40,589 nucleotides of DNA, from NCBI GenBank assembly GCA_005879805.1, contig VBKL01000067.1, positions 1 through 40,589 of the forward strand. The letters are read 5' to 3'. Position numbers and translations under genes: made by a program. The notes under the pieces were generated by a model, which worked only from the letters and a program-made list of their open reading frames with translations, made no database searches and was not told the DNA's origin. The DNA comes from Deltaproteobacteria bacterium. GTDB taxonomy: Bacteria > Myxococcota > Myxococcia > Myxococcales > 40CM-4-68-19. This document shows, in pieces, positions 12,631 to 21,363 of the stretch. Each line of letters starts with the position of its first letter. The stretch's first letter is position 1.

Positions 12631-14142
12631 GTGCACACGACCGACCCGCGACACCCGATCTGGAACCTGCTGCTCGCCATCGCGACAGCGACCAACGTCG
12701 TGGCGCTCTGGTCGGCGCCCTATCTGCCGTTCACCGACTTGCCCCAGCACGCGGCCGCGATCGCCACGCTTCGCCACTTCGACGATCCGGCCTGGAAGTC
12801 GCGCGAGTACTTCACGCTTGCGCTCGGAAGGTCGCAGTACCTGCTCTACTACCTCGCCGGCGCGCTGCTCGCCTTCCCCTTCGAGACTGCCGAGCGCGCC
12901 AACCTCGTGCTGCTCTCCCTGTCGGCGATCGCCTTCCCCTACGCGCTGCGATCGCTACTGCGCGCGCTCGGGGCGGACCAGAGGCTCGCGCTCTTCGCCG
13001 TCCCGCTCTTCTGGTCGCAGTCGCTCCTCATCGGGTTCTTCAACTACGTCGCGGCGCTTCCCCTCCTCCTCTGGGCGCTGGCCGTCTCGGTGCGCGAGGC
13101 GGAAGCGCCGCGTCCCGCGCGAACGGTCCTCCTCGCCGCCTTGTCGGTGGCGCTCTTCTACCTGCACCTCTCTGCTTTCCTGCTCTTCGCTCCGGCGGCG
13201 GCGCTCGCGCAGGTCATCCTGGGACCCCGCCGGCGGGCGGACCTCGCCCGGCGATTCGTCTGGACCCTTCCGACGCTGGGGCTGGGAATCGCGTTCCTGC
13301 TCACCAGCCCCGTCGTGCATCCCGACAGGGTCGGTTGGAACCAGCCCGTGGCGATCTGGTTCGAGCCTGCGGCGGATGCCATCAAGAAGCTCCCCGAAGC
13401 GCTCCTCGACATCTGGCCCGGAGACGAGGACCAGTGGATCTCGCTCGCGCTCGTCGCCGCGGCCGTCGCGCTCGCCATGCCCCGGGAAGCCGCCGTCCGG
13501 GTCCCGGGCCGGCGCTTCGCCCTCGCCCTTCTCTGGACCGCACTCGCGGTGGCGCTCTACTTCTGGTTCCCGATCTCCATCGGATGGCTGTGGCAATTGA
13601 ACGAGCGCTACGCGATCGCCGCGGCGCTCCTCGTACCGCTCCTCTTGCGGCCGCGACGCGGGCTGCGAGGCGCGCTACCGCTCCTCGTTGTTTTCGCCGT
13701 GGGAGTCGCCTCCGCCGGGGTCGCGGCGCGGCAGGCCCGCGAGTTCTCGCGCGAGGCGGACGGCTTCGATCGCGTGCTCTCCCGCGCACAGCCTGGCCGC
13801 CGCCTGCTCACGCTCGTCTACGAGCGGGGTTCACGGACGGCGAAGTTCGTCCCCTACCTTCATTTCGGGAGCTACTACCGGGCGCGGGGCGGCGGCATCG
13901 CCGCGTTCTCCTTCGCCGAGTTGCCGCAATCTCCACTGCGCTACCGGCCGGAGACGGAGCCTCCCCGTCATCCGGTGCACTGGGAATGGGAGCCGTGGCA
14001 ATTCGACCCGATCGTCGACGGCAACTACTACGACTACGTACTGGTCCGCGGAGCGATCGATCCGTTCGCGCGCGCCGGAACCGGTCCTCGTTTCCGGAGG
14101 ATCGCACACGAGGGTCTGTGGTCGCTCTACGCGAAGGACTAG
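12631..14142 (+). CDS. Polytopic membrane protein, possibly GT-C-like
   Basis: About 503 aa with around 10 hydrophobic segments spread between residues 10 and 375, followed by a soluble C-terminal part of about 120 residues that is rich in aromatics (YLHFGSYYRARGGG, DGNYYDYVLVRGAIDP). The first loop holds PYLPFTDLPQHAAAIATL with an acidic residue, which resembles the first periplasmic loop of GT-C-fold glycosyltransferases, but no definitive motif is present, so transfer of a sugar from a lipid carrier is only a possibility. Start codon uncertain: GTG 12631 or GTG 12589, neither with a strong Shine-Dalgarno sequence. It is divergent from sthA, and its stop codon overlaps the stop of the convergent PilZ gene (shared CTAG). 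Confidence 0.75.
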   Translation: MHTTDPRHPIWNLLLAIATATNVVALWSAPYLPFTDLPQHAAAIATLRHFDDPAWKSREYFTLALGRSQYLLYYLAGALLAFPFETAERANLVLLSLSAIAFPYALRSLLRALGADQRLALFAVPLFWSQSLLIGFFNYVAALPLLLWALAVSVREAEAPRPARTVLLAALSVALFYLHLSAFLLFAPAAALAQVILGPRRRADLARRFVWTLPTLGLGIAFLLTSPVVHPDRVGWNQPVAIWFEPAADAIKKLPEALLDIWPGDEDQWISLALVAAAVALAMPREAAVRVPGRRFALALLWTALAVALYFWFPISIGWLWQLNERYAIAAALLVPLLLRPRRGLRGALPLLVVFAVGVASAGVAARQAREFSREADGFDRVLSRAQPGRRLLTLVYERGSRTAKFVPYLHFGSYYRARGGGIAAFSFAELPQSPLRYRPETEPPRHPVHWEWEPWQFDPIVDGNYYDYVLVRGAIDPFARAGTGPRFRRIAHEGLWSLYAKD

Positions 14143-14510
14143 TGAACTGGACCGTTGCGCGTCGACTCCGACGACCGCGGAGTCACGAAGCGCAGCCCGA
14201 TCGCGCGCATGCCGGCCCGCGCCAGGTCCGCCCGGGCGTAATTGATGAAGCACTGGTAGCGGACCTCGCCTTCGAGGACCATCTCCGGCCCTCGTCCGGG
14301 GGAGGTGAAGGTCACCCGCACGCGGGACCCGAGCGGGAACGGCTCGCGCGTCTCCACGAACATCCCGGATTGCGTGATGTTGCGGCCGATTCCGGCGGCA
14401 ACCCCCCGCTCGCCTTCCAGGTATACGGGAAATGCCTTGTCGAACCGGGTCGGAAAACCGGGCTCACGCCGTGCAGCGGCCGGCCTGGATTGGTGCTCGC
14501 GGCTGGACAT
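14139..14510 (-). CDS. PilZ-like domain protein (myxobacterial type)
   Basis: About 123 aa. The domain covers about residues 20-110: FPVYLEGERG, then GRNITQSGMFVET, FPLGSRVRVTF and a C-terminal GMRAIGLRFV. This is the layout of the PilZ-like paralogues abundant in myxobacteria (TIGR02266-like). The canonical c-di-GMP motifs are weak: the RxxxR box is not clear and N/D-x-S-x-x-G appears as NITQSG. Binding of c-di-GMP is therefore uncertain. Starts considered: ATG 14510 (chosen) and TTG 14552; neither has a good ribosome site. A GGDEF cyclase with an intact active site is encoded at 31,640-32,557. Confidence 0.8.
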   Translation of the reverse strand: MSSREHQSRPAAARREPGFPTRFDKAFPVYLEGERGVAAGIGRNITQSGMFVETREPFPLGSRVRVTFTSPGRGPEMVLEGEVRYQCFINYARADLARAGMRAIGLRFVTPRSSESTRNGPVH

Positions 14511-14647
14511 GGGAAACGGGGGCACGGTAGGTGCGTAGGACGAGGGCGTCAAGGAAAGGGCGATCCGGGGGTATCGGCTCGCAACTCGGACCGCGACGTC
14601 TTACCTTGAGTTGAAGGGGGCGAAGGCTTGCTCCCGGAGGAAGCAGG

Positions 14648-14959
14648 ATGCACGGCCGGAAGGTAGGAAGCGCGTTGACTTCGGGCCTTCTGGCCCTGGC
14701 GATGGCACTGGCCGTCTTGCAGGCGACAATCCTCGCGCAGTCCACTTCGCCGGAACGCGTCACGACCTCCGCATCGTCTCCGCAGGCGCCCGTACACAAC
14801 GGAGCGGTTCCCTGGGCGCCCATCCCCTCCTCGCCGTCGGAGCGGGAGGGTCGGACTCCGGGCAGCAAGCCTCCGCGCGAGCAGCGCCGGCCGGGTTTGC
14901 GACCTCCGGGGATGATCCCGCAGGTCGGACCGCGGCCGACGCGCAAGGCCGTCGCCTAG
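14648..14959 (+). CDS. Small secreted Pro-rich protein
   Basis: 103 aa. Signal peptide or single membrane anchor at residues 8-30 (VGSALTSGLLALAMALAVLQ), then a low-complexity Ser/Pro/Arg-rich tail (SPSEREGRTPGSKPPREQRR and on to the end). A good GGAGG lies just ahead of the ATG, which supports expression. No domain recognised. It lies convergent to htrA with 5 bp between the stops. Given the composition it may be a poorly conserved exported peptide or an over-predicted frame, though codon third positions are G/C-rich as in real genes here. Confidence 0.55.
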   Translation: MHGRKVGSALTSGLLALAMALAVLQATILAQSTSPERVTTSASSPQAPVHNGAVPWAPIPSSPSEREGRTPGSKPPREQRRPGLRPPGMIPQVGPRPTRKAVA

Positions 14960-14964
14960 GACTT

Positions 14965-16596
14965 CTAGGACTTCAGCTTCACGGGCACGTAGCTCGAGGA
15001 CGGTCCTCTCTTCACCCGCAAGAGGATGGTTCCGCCTTTCTTCGACCGGCCGATCGCCTTCTTGTACTGGTCGACGGAGCCGACCTCCTGGCGGTTGACC
15101 TCCACGATCACGTCGCCCGGCTCGAGCTCGGCCGTCGCCGCCGGGGAATCCGGAGCCACGTCCGTGACCACGACGCCCTTGGTTCCCTCCTCGACGCGCG
15201 CCCTTTGCGCAAGATCCGGCGTGAGGTTCTGCACGCGCAGGCCGAGCGGGTCGCCCGGCGCCGATTCCGCGTTGCCCGGGGCAGGGCTGCGCTCGTTGAG
15301 ATCGTTGTCCTCGGGCCGCTCCTTGAGCTTCACTTCGAAAGTGCGCGTCTTGCCATCCCGCATGACGTCGACCTTCGCGACCTGGCCAGGCTGGACGCTT
15401 CCGACGTCGCGCTGGAACTGGTTGGGGTCGTTCACCGGCTTGCCGTTGAGCCCGACGACGACGTCGCCCGGCTTCAATCCGGATTCCGACGCCGGGCCTT
15501 TCGGCACCACCTCCGCGATGAGCGCGCCCCTCGTCGATTTCAGGCCGAGCTGATCGACCATGTCCGCGGTGATCGCCTGCGGCTGCACCCCCATGAAGCC
15601 GCGCACGACCCGGCCCTTCTGGCGTAGCTGCGGCAGGATCTGCTTCACCACCGCGATGGGGATGGCGAACCCGATGGTGTTCGCGCCGCTGATGATGGCG
15701 CTGTTGATGCCGATCACCTCTCCGCGCAGGTTGAAGAGCGGTCCCCCGGAGTTGCCGGGGTTGATCGAGGCGTCGGTCTGCAGGTAGTCGCTGTAGACGG
15801 AGCCCGGCCCGAGCGCGCGCTCCTTCGCGCTGATGATCCCGGCGGTGACCGTGGCCTGCAGGCCGAACGGCTCGCCGATGGCGATCACGTAATCGCCGAC
15901 CTGCAGCGCGTCGCTGTCCCCGAGCGTCGCGTGGGGCAGCTCGGCGACGTGCTCACCTTCGATCTTGAGCAGCGCGACGTCCGACTTGGGATCGTTCCCG
16001 ACGACCTTGGCGGTGAACTCGCGCGATCCGCCCGGCGCCGTCTCGTCCGTCGAGACCTTGATGTCGTCCATCGGGCGGAACTTGTTCGAGCCCGGATCCT
16101 GGATCTCGACCACGTGGTTGTTGGTCAGGACGTAGCCGTCGCCGATGAGGAAACCCGACCCGAGGCCGTGGCGCTCCTGCTGGTCGGGACCCTGGCCCTG
16201 GGGGCCGCCGCCGAAGAAGCGGAAGAACCGCTCCATCGGATCTTCCTGTCCCTGTCCGTTGTCGTCGTCGTCTCCCGGGTTGTCGAACGGGTTCGGGCGC
16301 TGCTGCCGGCCCTGCGGCGGCCGCTGGTTGCGGGCGATGCGCCTGGGCTTGAAGCGGGAGGCGACGTTGACGACGGTAGGACGGAGCTGTTTCACGATCG
16401 GGGCGAGCGACGGCAGGGTGGAGAACTGCCGATCGGCGGAAAGCTGCGCCGGAGCCGGCTGCGCCGCGGGAAGGGTATCCGCATGCGCGTCGGCGGCGAA
16501 CTGGCTTGGGTGATCGCATCCCGTGAGAACGACGGGCGCGAGCGCCGCGACGGCGGCGAAGTACACGATCAAACCGGTGAAACGAAAGCGAGACAT
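14965..16596 (-). CDS. HtrA/Do family serine protease, lipoprotein-anchored
   Basis: 543-aa periplasmic protease/chaperone of the Deg family. The N-terminal signal ends in the lipobox VLTGC (C27), so it is probably lipid-anchored, unlike E. coli DegP. A low-complexity linker (about 82-140, with GDDDDNGQGQ and FFGGGPQGQGPDQQ) precedes the trypsin-like domain with triad H161 (TNNHVV), D206 (KSDVALL) and S283 (INPGNSGGP). Two PDZ domains follow at about 325-420 (GFMGVQPQAI, GLKPGDVVVGLNGKPV) and 455-535 (LEPGDVIVEVNRQEVG). It degrades or refolds misfolded envelope proteins. It is the last gene of the minus-strand run after ftsH and the sigma-1.1-like gene. An upstream AT-richer stretch (about 16,670-16,730) may hold its promoter. 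Confidence 0.94.
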   Translation of the reverse strand: MSRFRFTGLIVYFAAVAALAPVVLTGCDHPSQFAADAHADTLPAAQPAPAQLSADRQFSTLPSLAPIVKQLRPTVVNVASRFKPRRIARNQRPPQGRQQRPNPFDNPGDDDDNGQGQEDPMERFFRFFGGGPQGQGPDQQERHGLGSGFLIGDGYVLTNNHVVEIQDPGSNKFRPMDDIKVSTDETAPGGSREFTAKVVGNDPKSDVALLKIEGEHVAELPHATLGDSDALQVGDYVIAIGEPFGLQATVTAGIISAKERALGPGSVYSDYLQTDASINPGNSGGPLFNLRGEVIGINSAIISGANTIGFAIPIAVVKQILPQLRQKGRVVRGFMGVQPQAITADMVDQLGLKSTRGALIAEVVPKGPASESGLKPGDVVVGLNGKPVNDPNQFQRDVGSVQPGQVAKVDVMRDGKTRTFEVKLKERPEDNDLNERSPAPGNAESAPGDPLGLRVQNLTPDLAQRARVEEGTKGVVVTDVAPDSPAATAELEPGDVIVEVNRQEVGSVDQYKKAIGRSKKGGTILLRVKRGPSSSYVPVKLKS

Positions 16597-16693
16597 GGCT
16601 ACGAGCCTCCAAGCGGGCGGTCGTTGCCAGAGAACAGCTATGCCCGCCCTGCATTTCGGGAAATCGAGTACCCGTTTTTACAGCTTGGACGCG

Positions 16694-16747
16694 GGCTGCG
16701 CAGCCGAGATTTAAAAGAATTGTCCTGCGGGCCGATCCGTACGGATC
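16694..16747. repeat. Two perfect palindromes between the sigma-1.1-like gene and htrA
   Basis: GGCTGCGCAGCC (16694-16705, 12 bp) and GATCCGTACGGATC (16734-16747, 14 bp) are exact palindromes separated by an AT-rich stretch (ATTTAAAAGAATT). The second overlaps the stop codon of the sigma-1.1-like gene. They lie in the region expected to hold the htrA promoter, so a dimeric regulator site is possible. No regulator or T-tract is seen, so neither operator nor terminator is established. Confidence 0.35.
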
Positions 16748-17042
16748 AGTGCTGGGTATCGGCCTCTGCCTCGAACCCGATCTCGTCGCCGACTTCCTCG
16801 TTCAGGGATCTTCCGGAGTCCGGCGATCGTTCTTCGACCTCGATGGCATGTCCCTCGCCGTCGCGGATTTCCACCCGCGAAGCCTTGAGCGAGTAGTAGA
16901 GAAGCCACCGCTCGGCATCGGTGAGGCTGCCCGGAGGCAACGCCTCGTCGATCTCCTCCACCGAGAGGAAGCCACGCCGGATCCCCCGGGCGAAGAGCGC
17001 TTTCCTGGCCTTGTGCGATCGGCCAATCTTCAGCGTGGACAT
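16746..17042 (-). CDS. Stand-alone sigma-70 region 1.1-like protein
   Basis: 98 aa. Residues about 14-60 (ALFARGIRRGFLSVEEIDEA, then LPPGSLTDAERWLLYYSL and VEIRD) match the pattern of sigma-70 region 1.1: a G-x-x-x-G-[YF]-L-[ST]-x-x-E-I-x-E-A-L-P helix-turn followed by a second helix and an acidic strand. In RpoD this domain occupies the polymerase DNA channel and keeps free sigma off DNA. Here it stands alone with an acidic C-terminal tail (EVEERSPDSGRSLNEEVGDE) and no regions 1.2-4. It could bind RNA polymerase or another basic groove; this is inference. ATG at 17042 follows GGGGGAGACTG. It is downstream of ftsH (119 bp) and upstream of htrA on the same strand. Confidence 0.72.
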   Translation of the reverse strand: MSTLKIGRSHKARKALFARGIRRGFLSVEEIDEALPPGSLTDAERWLLYYSLKASRVEIRDGEGHAIEVEERSPDSGRSLNEEVGDEIGFEAEADTQH

Positions 17043-17161
17043 CAGTCTCCCCCGACCCGCCTACCCCCGAAACCCTACCCCTTCCCCACGCTTGCTGCAG
17101 GCTTCGAGCGCCGCCCTGCTCGCCCCGCGAGGGACGGCGCCCGGCCTTCGGCCAACCGGCA

Positions 17162-19144
17162 CTATGCTCCGGCAGCCTGATCTTGCGGCGGAACCGGCGC
17201 GATCACCTCGCCGCGCCGATCATCCTCGGCGGCAGCGGGACCGCGCTTCTCCGGCACGGGCGCGCCCGCCTCGACCAGGATCCGGCGAAGCTCGTCGCCC
17301 TCGATGACCTCGATGGCCAGGAGCCGCGCGGCGACCTTGCCGAGCGCCTCGCGATTCCGGGAGACCAGGTCGCGGGCCCGGGTCATCGCTTCTTCCAAGA
17401 GACGCGACACTTCGTCGTCGATGCGCCGCTGCATCTGCTCGCTGTAGTTCTTGTCGCCGAAGCCGCCGAATCCCTTCTCGCCGTTCAGGAACGTCGAGCG
17501 CCGCTCGGCGAGATTGACGGGGCCGATCGCCTCGGACATGCCGTACTCGACCACCATCAGGCGTGCGATCTCCGTCGCCTGCTTGAGATCGTTCGAGGCG
17601 CCGGTCGAGATGCTGCCCACCATGATCTCCTCGGCGGCGCGCCCGCCCATGAGCCCGGCCATCTTGTCGAGCAGCTCTTCGCGCGACATGAGGTAGCGGT
17701 CCTCGAGGGGAAGCTGGAGCGTGTAGCCGAGCGCGGCGAGGCCGCGCGGGATGATGGAGATCTTCGTCACCGGCTCCGAGTAGCGGCAGAGCGTGGAGAC
17801 CACCGCGTGCCCCGACTCGTGGTAGGCGACGATCTCCTTCTCCTTCTCGTTCATGCGGCGGGTCTTCTTCTCCAGGCCGGCGACGACGCGCTCGATCGCC
17901 TCCATGAAGTCCGCCATCACCACCTTGTCGCGGTCCTTGCGGGCAGCGAGAAGCGCGGACTCGTTGACCACGTTGGCGAGATCGGCGCCGGCGAATCCCG
18001 GTGTGCGCCCCGCCACCTCGCGCAGATCCACGTCGGCGCCGAGCTTCACCTCGCGCGCGTGGATTCTCAGGATCTGCTCCCGGCCGCGCTTGTCGGGCCG
18101 GTCGACCAGTACCTGCCGATCGAAACGGCCGGGGCGCATCAGCGCCGGGTCGAGGATCTCGGGACGGTTGGTCGCGGCGATGACGATGAGCGCGGTGCGG
18201 GCGTCGAAGCCGTCCATCTCGGCGAGCATCTGGTTGAGCGTCTGCTCGCGCTCGTCGTGGCCGCCGAACATGCCGGCATTGCGGCTCTTCCCGATCGCGT
18301 CGAGCTCGTCGATGAAGATGATGGCCGGCGCCTTGGCGGCGGCCTGCTGGAAGAGATCGCGGACGCGCGCGGCGCCGACGCCGACGAACATCTCCACGAA
18401 CTCCGAGCCGGAGAGCGAGAAGAAGGGCACGCCGGCTTCGCCTGCCACGGCGCGGGCGAGCAGCGTCTTGCCGGTGCCGGGAGGTCCGACGAGGAGCACG
18501 CCCTTGGGGATGCGGCCGCCGAGGCGGCGGAACTTGTTCGGCGTCTTGAGGAACTCGACGATCTCCTTCAGCTCGTCGACCGCCTCGTCGATGCCCGCGA
18601 CGTCCTTGAAGGAGACGCCGGTCTGCGCCTCCATGTAGATGCGCGCCTTGGTCTTTCCGAAGCTCATCACCCCGGGCGGACCGCCCGGCATGCCGCCGCT
18701 CATCCGGCGCGTGAGCCAGCTGACGAAGAGGAGCCCGAGGCCCACCGGCACCGCGAGCATCCAGATCAAATCCATGGTGCTGCTCTCGGTCACCGCCTCG
18801 TACTCGAGATGCTTCTGCTCGAGGAGCGGGACGAGCGTGGTGTCGCCGGGAACGCGCACCGCGAACCAAGGCAGCTCGCTGCGCGCGGGCGTGTCGGTGC
18901 CCGGCTTCGCGTAGCACTTCACCCAGTCCTGGCTGAGGATGACTTTCGCACACCCGTCGCTGCGGATCCGTTCGACCAGCCTGCTGTAGGGAACGCGCTG
19001 GAAGCCCGCGTCCTGGAACAACGTGCGCAGCAGCAGGAAGGCGACGAGGACCAGCAAGACGTACGCCAGGGGCGAACCGAAGCGCGGCCCTGTCTGGCCC
19101 TGCTTGTCGGGCTTCTTGCCGCGCGGACTGGGCTTTCCGATCAT
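17162..19144 (-). CDS. ftsH: ATP-dependent zinc metalloprotease FtsH
   Basis: 660-aa membrane AAA+ protease. Two membrane segments (about 25-42 and 124-145) flank a short periplasmic domain. The AAA module has Walker A GPPGTGKT (220-227), Walker [10 protein letters not shown] (275-283) and the [20 protein letters not shown] (324-340). The zinc site is HESGH (442-446), and the C-terminal part carries the [18 protein letters not shown] block. It degrades misfolded membrane proteins and short-lived regulators. The periplasmic segment has two Cys (GCAKVIL, VKCYAK), which is unusual. ATG at 19144 follows GGGAGGGGAG. A Nudix gene lies upstream on the same strand; the sigma-1.1-like and htrA genes lie downstream. 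Confidence 0.96.
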
Positions 19145-19279
19145 TTCGGTGCTCCCCTCCCGGTGGGCGGACCTCTCCCCTGCACAAACCTAAGGTCCCG
19201 CCAGCCGGTCCGCCACCTGACCAGCCGCGGCATGAGGAACCTAGTTCGTAGGTCCAGGAGCTGAGCAGGCGCCGGATCG

Positions 19280-19675
19280 CTAATTGGTGAGATCGAGCAG
19301 CTGCGCGACGGTCTTCTCATCGGCCGCTGGAAACTCGTACTTGTCCATCTCGCGCGGCGCTACCCAACGGTGGTCGTGGACGCGGATGTTCTCGATCTCA
19401 CCGCCCAGGAGCGTGCAAGCGTAGACGCAGAAGTCGATGTCGTAGTGCGGGTACGAATGCTGCACATGCATGACACGATCGCGCACATCGACGTCGATCC
19501 CCATCTCCTCTTTCAACTCGCGGGCCAGGGCGGCCTCGTCGGTCTCTCCCTCTTCGACCCTGCCGCCGGGGAATTCCCACAGGAGGGGGAGGGTTGCGGA
19601 TGGGCGGCGCTGGGTGATGAGGTACTTGCCGTCCCGCTCGATCATCGCGGCTACTACGCGGATCTTGGCCGGCAT
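19280..19675 (-). CDS. Nudix hydrolase, MutT-like
   Basis: 131 aa. The Nudix box G-x5-E-x7-R-E-U-x-E-E-x-G-U is complete at residues 38-60 (GRVEEGETDEAALARELKEE, then MGI). The preceding LLWEFPGG and the first strand KIRVVAAMI fit the MutT/NTP-pyrophosphohydrolase subgroup that removes oxidised nucleotides (8-oxo-dGTP) or related dinucleotides. The substrate is not determined by sequence alone. The C-terminal WVAPREMDKYEFPAAD resembles the end of MutT proteins. It is divergent from the secreted protease gene and 135 bp upstream of ftsH; that gap holds no feature I recognise. Confidence 0.9.
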   Translation of the reverse strand: MPAKIRVVAAMIERDGKYLITQRRPSATLPLLWEFPGGRVEEGETDEAALARELKEEMGIDVDVRDRVMHVQHSYPHYDIDFCVYACTLLGGEIENIRVHDHRWVAPREMDKYEFPAADEKTVAQLLDLTN

Positions 19676-19785
19676 GACGCGGGACCATAGACCTCAGCCC
19701 CTTCGCGCGGCAAGGCAGGCGTGGAAGCGCCCGGCCGTTCTTTTTTGCTGCCGGGATAGGCTCGGCCAGCCAAGGAGGCAAGGGC

Positions 19786-21363
19786 ATGATCGGTTCGCTT
19801 GCAGTCCTTCTGGTAGCGGTCGGCGTTGCCCCGGCCGTCGCCAAGTCGACAACTCCGGTCCGGCCCGCCGCCAAGGCTCCCCGCCCCGCGCCGGCTCCGG
19901 CGCCGGTCCCCACGCTGTGCGAAGGCGACTACGCCGACAGCGTTCCCGCTGCTCGCGCGAGCGAGATCCTCGACGCGGTGAAGGACCAGTTCGTCTTTTC
20001 CATCCGCAACATCGCTACCTACGAGCGCGTCTACTACGGACGCGACGGCAAGCTCCGCCGCAACTACATCCGTTCGGTCGTGCACGGAACCGGCTTCGCC
20101 TACCAGGTGAAGGACGGCGAGACGCTCATCGTCACCAACGAGCACGTCGCGAACCGCCCGGACGTCACCGACGACGAGCACCAGGTCGACGGCGTTCCTC
20201 CGGGCAGCAAGAAGGTGCGCGAGCAGATCAAGATCGTCCGCGACGAAGAGGACGACTACGAACCCGGCCACGTGCCGCTCAAGCTCGCGCTCTCCGATTC
20301 CGCCGCCGACATCGCCATCGTGAAGGCCCGCAAGATCCTTCCGGTGATGCCCTTCCGCGTCGGCCGCTCCTCGGCGCTGCGCCCGGGCAACCTCGTGCAG
20401 GTGCGCGGCTTCCCTCTCGGCGCCTTTGCCGCCGTGAACGTCGGCAAGGTGGTCAATCCGTATACCGAAGACACCGAGCACGGCTGGAGCCACAGCGACT
20501 TCGTGGTCGACGCGCTCCTCAGCGCCGGAAACAGCGGCAGTCCGGTCTTCGCGGTCAACTGCCGTACCTCGCAGCCCGAGCTGGTCGGCGTCTTCCATGC
20601 CGGCTACTCCGATGCGGCGGCGCTCAACGTGGTGGTCAGCGTCGATCAGCTCCGTGAGGAGCTCGAGACCCTGCATGTTCCCAAGCGGGAAGGAGGCCTG
20701 CGCGCGGAGATCACCGCGCAGGATCGCGACCGTCTGGTGAAGGAGCTCTTCGCCGAGCAGACCCACGCGCTCACCTTCCCGTTCGGCGGGAGGATCGCCA
20801 CCGTGCGCCTCGCCGACCCGACCACGCTGCGCTTCTCGATCCTCGACGACGACTACCCCTTGGTGGTCAGGGAAGGCGTGACTCTCGTCGATCGCGGGGC
20901 AAACGGATTCGGCACCCTCGACGGAATCGTGGTGCCGGTCGATGGCGCTCCCGCCGAGGCTTCGCCTTCGCTCCTCGATGCCGAGGTGCGCGACCACTTC
21001 GACAAGCTCTACGACTCGCTCTGGCACCAGGTGCTGGGCGTGGTGGACTACCGGAGCCGGCTCGCGCGGGCGCAGAAGAGCGCCGACGCCTTCGCCGAGT
21101 CGCAGCAGGCGAAGATGCGGCTGCGCAAGCGGAACGGAGAGCAGAAGGAGCTTCTCGGCCTCTGCCTCTTCGACGCCGATCGCGCGGGAGCGGTCGCCCA
21201 GCGCGCCGTCGCGACGCCGCCCGTGGCGGTAGCGGCCCCGACGCAGCCGTCCGCGGACGACACGGTCGCCGCCGCTCGGAAGGATCCACCGGTACAACCT
21301 TCCTCGATCGCGCCGGTAGCGCCCTCGCAGACCGGCTCGGGCGGCGATCGGTCCGGCCGCTAG
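19786..21363 (+). CDS. Secreted trypsin-like serine protease
   Basis: 525 aa. Signal peptide (residues 1-19, MIGSLAVLLVAVGVAPAVA) followed by a Pro/Ala linker. The chymotrypsin-fold domain spans about 65-300 with triad H120 (IVTNEHVAN), D175 (SAADIAIVKA) and S250 (LSAGNSGSPVF), resembling HtrA-type catalytic domains but without a PDZ domain. The C-terminal half (310-525) has a segment FRFSILDDDYPL-like (RFSILDDDYPLVVREG), a charged helical stretch and a Pro/Ser/Ala tail. CAAGGAGG lies before the ATG. It probably acts in the periplasm or outside the cell. Its stop codon shares CTAG with the stop of the convergent CoA-binding gene. Confidence 0.87.
   Translation: MIGSLAVLLVAVGVAPAVAKSTTPVRPAAKAPRPAPAPAPVPTLCEGDYADSVPAARASEILDAVKDQFVFSIRNIATYERVYYGRDGKLRRNYIRSVVHGTGFAYQVKDGETLIVTNEHVANRPDVTDDEHQVDGVPPGSKKVREQIKIVRDEEDDYEPGHVPLKLALSDSAADIAIVKARKILPVMPFRVGRSSALRPGNLVQVRGFPLGAFAAVNVGKVVNPYTEDTEHGWSHSDFVVDALLSAGNSGSPVFAVNCRTSQPELVGVFHAGYSDAAALNVVVSVDQLREELETLHVPKREGGLRAEITAQDRDRLVKELFAEQTHALTFPFGGRIATVRLADPTTLRFSILDDDYPLVVREGVTLVDRGANGFGTLDGIVVPVDGAPAEASPSLLDAEVRDHFDKLYDSLWHQVLGVVDYRSRLARAQKSADAFAESQQAKMRLRKRNGEQKELLGLCLFDADRAGAVAQRAVATPPVAVAAPTQPSADDTVAAARKDPPVQPSSIAPVAPSQTGSGGDRSGR

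Follow-up and report, generated by a model that had tools for sequence, protein, structure and literature searches.

A stand-alone sigma-70 region 1.1 protein encoded beside one FtsH paralogue in the Myxococcales

The window analysed in this study is a stretch of 40,589 nucleotides (contig VBKL01000067.1) from a deltaproteobacterial genome assembly placed in the order Myxococcales of the phylum Myxococcota. Between a gene for an FtsH protease and a gene for an HtrA/DegP-type protease, an ORF on the minus strand, the strand common to all three genes, encodes a protein of 98 aa (MSTLKIGRSHKARKALFARGIRRGFLSVEEIDEALPPGSLTDAERWLLYYSLKASRVEIRDGEGHAIEVEERSPDSGRSLNEEVGDEIGFEAEADTQH), designated here S11 for stand-alone sigma-70 region 1.1 protein. 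The ORF starts with an ATG at position 17042, with GGAG a few bases 5′ of it, and its stop codon ends at position 16746; 119 bases separate it from ftsH and 149 bases from htrA. The features of the locus are listed in Table 1. Also observed in the window were a 103-aa ORF with a signal-peptide-like start, located on the opposite strand between pilZ and htrA, and a gene, divergent from nudix, that encodes a trypsin-like protein. The position of the trypsin-like gene is kept in the window's taxonomic family and in genome G015 (L056).

Table 1. Features of the S11 locus and of related loci (window positions unless a locus is named)
Feature	Position	Strand	Basis
S11, stand-alone sigma region 1.1-like protein, 98 aa	16746..17042	-	ORF, Pfam, homologues, hhalign, pN/pS
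S11 conserved folded core, residues 9-61 (H1, strand, H2, H3, strand)	16860..17018	-	23-member alignment, AlphaFold, Foldseek
S11 helix-3 patch, E44-R45-W46-L47-L48-Y49-Y50-S51-L52	16887..16913	-	Column comparison with RpoD
S11 C-terminal tail, residues 62-98, acidic, probably disordered	16749..16859	-	Alignment, charge, pLDDT
FtsH of the S11-associated type (FtsH-A), directly upstream of S11	17162..19144	-	Pfam Peptidase_M41, E 1.9e-65; bimodal paralogue split
HtrA/DegP-type protease, two PDZ domains, directly downstream of S11	14965..16596	-	Pfam; conserved synteny
NUDIX hydrolase (MutT-like), upstream member of the conserved block	19280..19675	-	Pfam; synteny
PilZ-domain protein, downstream end of the conserved block	14139..14552	-	Pfam; synteny
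103-aa ORF, signal-peptide-like start	14648..14959	+	
Trypsin-like protein	19786..21363	+	
grpE between S11 and htrA	L052 7325-7915; L046 7290-7850; L049 7340-7900	oriented along S11	
S11 of genome G018	L042 5219-5515		

The sole Pfam match of the window protein was Sigma70_r1_1 (PF03979), which covered residues 12–64 with an E-value of 3e-4 and a score of 21.1 bits, just below the curated cut-off of 22.5. Sigma regions 1.2, 2, 3, and 4 were not found in the 98-aa ORF by the Pfam scan, and an NCBIfam scan of the protein gave no match. The homologue from genome G032 scored 27.8 bits against PF03979, above the curated cut-off, and all 23 S11 homologues matched this family in a Pfam scan with E-values allowed up to 1, the best being 9.7e-10. 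Alignment of the S11 family profile with region 1.1 of RpoD from the same order by hhalign gave a probability of 96% and an E-value of 2e-9 over about 59 columns; the first PDB matches of the family profile were sigma factors only.

Two AlphaFold models of S11 were obtained. The single-sequence model had a mean pLDDT of 79, and the model built from seven sequences had a mean pLDDT of 71, lowered by the tail. Both predicted a helix-strand-helix-helix-strand fold with a pLDDT of about 80–93 in the core, and residues 77–95 had low pLDDT in one model. In Foldseek searches with either model, the first two PDB matches were B. subtilis sigmaA models, one of which is the NMR structure of region 1.1, and E. 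coli sigma70 in the complex with Gp2 was also among the matches. The rmsd between the S11 model and region 1.1 of B. subtilis sigmaA (5mww) was 1.7–1.8 Å over 56 columns. The sigmaA matches had probabilities of 0.99–1.00 and E-values of 0.08–0.5, a weakness that the small size of the domain may explain. With homologue matches, profile-profile alignment, predicted fold, and the pN/pS values given below taken together, the identification of S11 as a region 1.1 domain is firm, even though the window protein by itself is borderline. A free-standing region 1.1-like domain without any other sigma region had been proposed in a sequence-only reading of the window, and both parts of this proposal were borne out; the profile search and structure prediction suggested there returned a PF03979 match and the region 1.1 fold, so the proposal was not refuted.

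In relatives, RpoD is intact, including its region 1.1, and is encoded by a gene separate from that of S11; as a rule, two PF03979 matches were obtained per genome with S11 and one per genome without it. The window's own assembly (G000), which is 88% complete, yielded no region 1.1 of RpoD; a genome of the same genus (G001) has an intact RpoD besides S11. The possibility that S11 is a piece split off from an incomplete RpoD was therefore ruled out.

S11 was sought first in 60 relatives and next in 195 Myxococcota genomes, with a threshold of E below 1e-25. At this threshold, 103 of the 145 genomes belonging to the window's order had S11, and none of the 50 other Myxococcota genomes gave a match. 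Weaker matches in the phylum search comprised 28–62 residues and showed region 1.1 inside frames several hundred codons long; those that were read were RpoD. Coverage beyond Myxococcota consisted only of a close-relative scan of 84,980 species, in which six related deltaproteobacterial/myxobacterial MAGs carried matches. With regard to a mobile or phage origin, S11 had no match in plasmid or phage collections. Judged from the genomes searched, S11 is an order-specific, single-copy gene, separate from and alongside intact RpoD.

The alignment of 23 S11 members contained 13 invariant residues (R13, K14, L16, F17, L26, E30, R45, W46, L47, L48, S51, L52, and A54), and comparison of the window protein with six relatives gave pN/pS values of 0.10–0.25 for the core. 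On these substitution ratios, S11 is a real gene under strong purifying selection. A chance ORF, or a decaying and functionless fragment of RpoD, might be suspected from the single window protein, which scores just under the Pfam cut-off. Given the conservation throughout the order, the invariant residues, the low pN/pS, and the conserved genomic position, the probability of such an origin is negligible, and a chance ORF was ruled out by the conservation and the pN/pS values.

Column comparison showed that the H1-strand-H2 half is common to S11 and RpoD, with K14, L16, G20, G24, L26, E30, A34, L35, and P36 in both and the same G-x-x-x-G-x-L-T-x-x-E-I-x-x-A-L-P segment. The two differ in charge. 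The region 1.1 core of RpoD is strongly acidic, with a net charge of -6 to -10 in 18 RpoD sequences from the same order, whereas the 53-residue core of S11 is neutral to slightly basic (0 to +5 in 22 of the 23 members, and -1 in the remaining one). The tail of the window protein carries a net charge of -10 over 37 residues; among the 23 members, tail length varies between 0 and 53 residues and tail charge between -14 and +4. The acidic tail pointed out in the sequence-only reading is thus present in the window protein, but, as the aligned members indicate, it is not a trait of the S11 family. This tail is what speaks for S11 acting as a DNA mimic that occupies the DNA channel of RNA polymerase in trans, as had also been suggested. 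With the negative charge of the core lost and the tail so variable, that suggestion was not borne out, and we regard it as very improbable.

The other half of the core is where the surface has changed. Helix 3 of RpoD reads D/E-Q-I-D-D-V-M-S-M-F, with an acidic residue at position 54, and that of S11 reads A-E-R-W-L-L-Y/F-Y-S-L, with A54; R45, W46, L47, L48, S51, and L52 of this patch are invariant in all 23 members. Replacement of the acidic face of helix 3 by an invariant or near-invariant ERWLL(Y/F)YSL-A patch indicates selection on a new surface. Residues W46, L47, Y50, S51, and A54 would lie on the outer face of the helix, as read from the alignment register (in which I45, V48, M49, and F52 of region 1.1 face inward) and not from coordinates, and this orientation makes a new docking surface on helix 3 likely.

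A further possibility is that S11 binds DNA as a winged-helix protein and regulates its own cluster, ftsH-grpE-htrA. The predicted fold of S11 is small and helix-turn-helix-like, helix 1 is basic (R13 and K14 are invariant, and positions 19–23 are rich in R/K), and the gene lies inside the cluster that would be regulated. However, winged helices usually recognise DNA through helix 3, which in S11 is hydrophobic and aromatic instead of polar or basic, and genome G018 retains S11 away from all genes of the cluster. Autoregulation of this kind is considered quite unlikely.

Across the order, S11 belongs to a conserved block on one strand, arranged as nudix, ftsH, S11, (grpE), htrA, and pilZ. In most taxonomic families other than that of the window, grpE lies between S11 and htrA (the intervening genes were identified by Pfam GrpE, with E-values of 4e-32 and 2e-35), and S11 directly adjoins htrA mainly in the window's own family. 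Of the position between ftsH and htrA that the sequence-only reading had stressed, the ftsH side is therefore conserved order-wide, while the htrA side holds mainly for the window's family, and a specific link to htrA is weakened. The conservation of gene order, for which a check across Myxococcota had been proposed, extends over the window's order and not to the 50 genomes outside it, where S11 was not found. The distance from ftsH to S11 ranged from -4 to 174 bp, with a 4-base overlap in four loci; overlaps of 4 bases are typical of translational coupling. No CIRCE heat-shock operator, with up to 3 mismatches allowed, was found in the window or in the loci examined, and a scan of positions 16400–19800 for sigma-70 promoters and terminators gave nothing above chance.

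FtsH matches in the 145 genomes of the order fell into two separate classes, FtsH-A, with at least 64% identity and at least 784 bits, and the others, with at most about 58% identity over partial alignments and at most 644 bits. In raw genome counts, uncorrected for phylogeny, S11 and FtsH-A were both present in 102 genomes and both absent in 41; S11 occurred without FtsH-A in one genome and FtsH-A without S11 in another. The 102 include G011, in which a partial FtsH with 77% identity lies at a contig end. The genome with S11 only is G006, an 88% complete assembly in which no FtsH-A was detected, and the genome with FtsH-A only is G149, in which grpE directly follows ftsH. In at least four families (f1, f3, f4, and f6), some members have neither gene of the pair but still have RpoD and GrpE. 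Genomes with the pair and genomes without it occur within each of these families, and also within f9, where this depends on a genome that is 69% complete. The loci of G027 and G041 lack both ftsH and S11, with nudix immediately next to grpE-htrA. It was also observed that FtsH-A is absent from whole genera with otherwise near-complete genomes.

In G012 and G018, S11 and FtsH-A are located on different contigs, and both are kept. The S11 gene of G018 stands alone, away from ftsH, grpE, and htrA. The co-occurrence of S11 with FtsH-A supports a functional link; it is not proof of one, since loss of one gene easily takes its neighbour with it. Hitch-hiking through single deletions may account for much of the co-occurrence, and retention of both genes when unlinked was seen in two lineages only.

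As the best explanation, we tentatively favour, with a confidence somewhat short of an even chance, that the region 1.1 fold has been re-used as a docking partner of the FtsH-A quality-control module. S11 would be a cytosolic protein-docking module working with the FtsH-A protease, as a partner or adaptor either of FtsH-A or of its clients. Binding would use the invariant helix-3 face, ERWLL(Y/F)YSL-A, together with the conserved basic start of helix 1 (RK), and would not involve imitation of DNA. Since they are encoded in one gene cluster, the dose of S11 would probably follow that of FtsH-A and usually those of GrpE and HtrA. Both docking through helix 3 and service to the FtsH-A module are what we infer from the sequence comparisons and gene distribution. 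The near-strict co-occurrence with FtsH-A, the unlinked retention in G012 and G018, and the new surface of helix 3 count in favour of docking; the existence of G149 and G006 counts against it, as does the fact that known proteins of the region 1.1 fold act on RNA polymerase. S11 resembles the small regulators and adaptors associated with FtsH in being small and in being encoded beside, and co-occurring with, a membrane AAA+ protease. We know of no FtsH partner with a region 1.1 fold.

The main rival to docking on FtsH is binding of S11 in trans to RNA polymerase or the primary sigma factor, by which promoter opening would be tuned under quality-control load; the level of S11 may in addition be set by FtsH-A proteolysis. 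This is possible but, in our judgement, doubtful. The fold of S11 is that of region 1.1, conservation between S11 and RpoD is highest in the H1-strand-H2 segment, and the neighbouring genes ftsH and grpE are members of the classical heat-shock set. There is also a laboratory precedent for action in trans: isolated sigma70 region 1.1 restores full Gp2 inhibition of a holoenzyme lacking region 1.1, and full inhibition of the sigma38 holoenzyme is obtained with it too (PMC3778932). However, the S11 core has lost the negative charge by which region 1.1 is proposed to stand in for DNA (PMC3778932). Moreover, S11 co-occurs near-strictly with one FtsH paralogue and not with RNA polymerase, which is common to all genomes, and these genomes retain region 1.1 within RpoD. 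A messenger role, in which the split-off region 1.1 binds RNA polymerase or sigmaA and the FtsH-A encoded next to it sets its level, is unlikely; if true, the Myxococcales would have a sigma-1.1-based counterpart of the FtsH-sigma32 circuit.

A comparison with region 1.1 has been made for the folded domain of the delta subunit (RpoE) of Gram-positive RNA polymerase, of the HARE-HTH type. S11 and delta are both small and free-standing, and some S11 members have an acidic tail. In contrast to the variable tails of S11, delta has a long acidic disordered C-terminal half, and the genomic context and phylum of S11 are also different. No HARE-HTH match was given by Pfam for any of the 23 S11 members, and delta was not among the Foldseek matches listed for the S11 models. 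With region 1.1 of primary sigma factors, S11 shares homology over the aligned columns and the predicted fold; it differs from those factors in being a separate protein without sigma regions 1.2–4. Region 1.1 has been described as present only in major sigma factors (PMC3778932), and no description of a free-standing region 1.1 protein was found in the literature searched, which was mostly without subscription papers. What is new in S11 is the setting and the altered surface; the domain itself is known.

As a conserved separate gene with a region 1.1 fold and an altered surface, tied to one FtsH paralogue, S11 shows that the region 1.1 domain can be re-used on its own. The protein is small and easily tested, it occurs in the order to which the model organism belongs, and it allows one to ask whether myxobacteria have a link between protein quality control and RNA polymerase. 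Among the extra PF03979 matches outside the order, reading covered those at L167 and L171, leaving aside L166, L168, L169, L170, and L173. Both are sigma factors; some other Myxococcota have a second sigma factor with a region 1.1 of its own.
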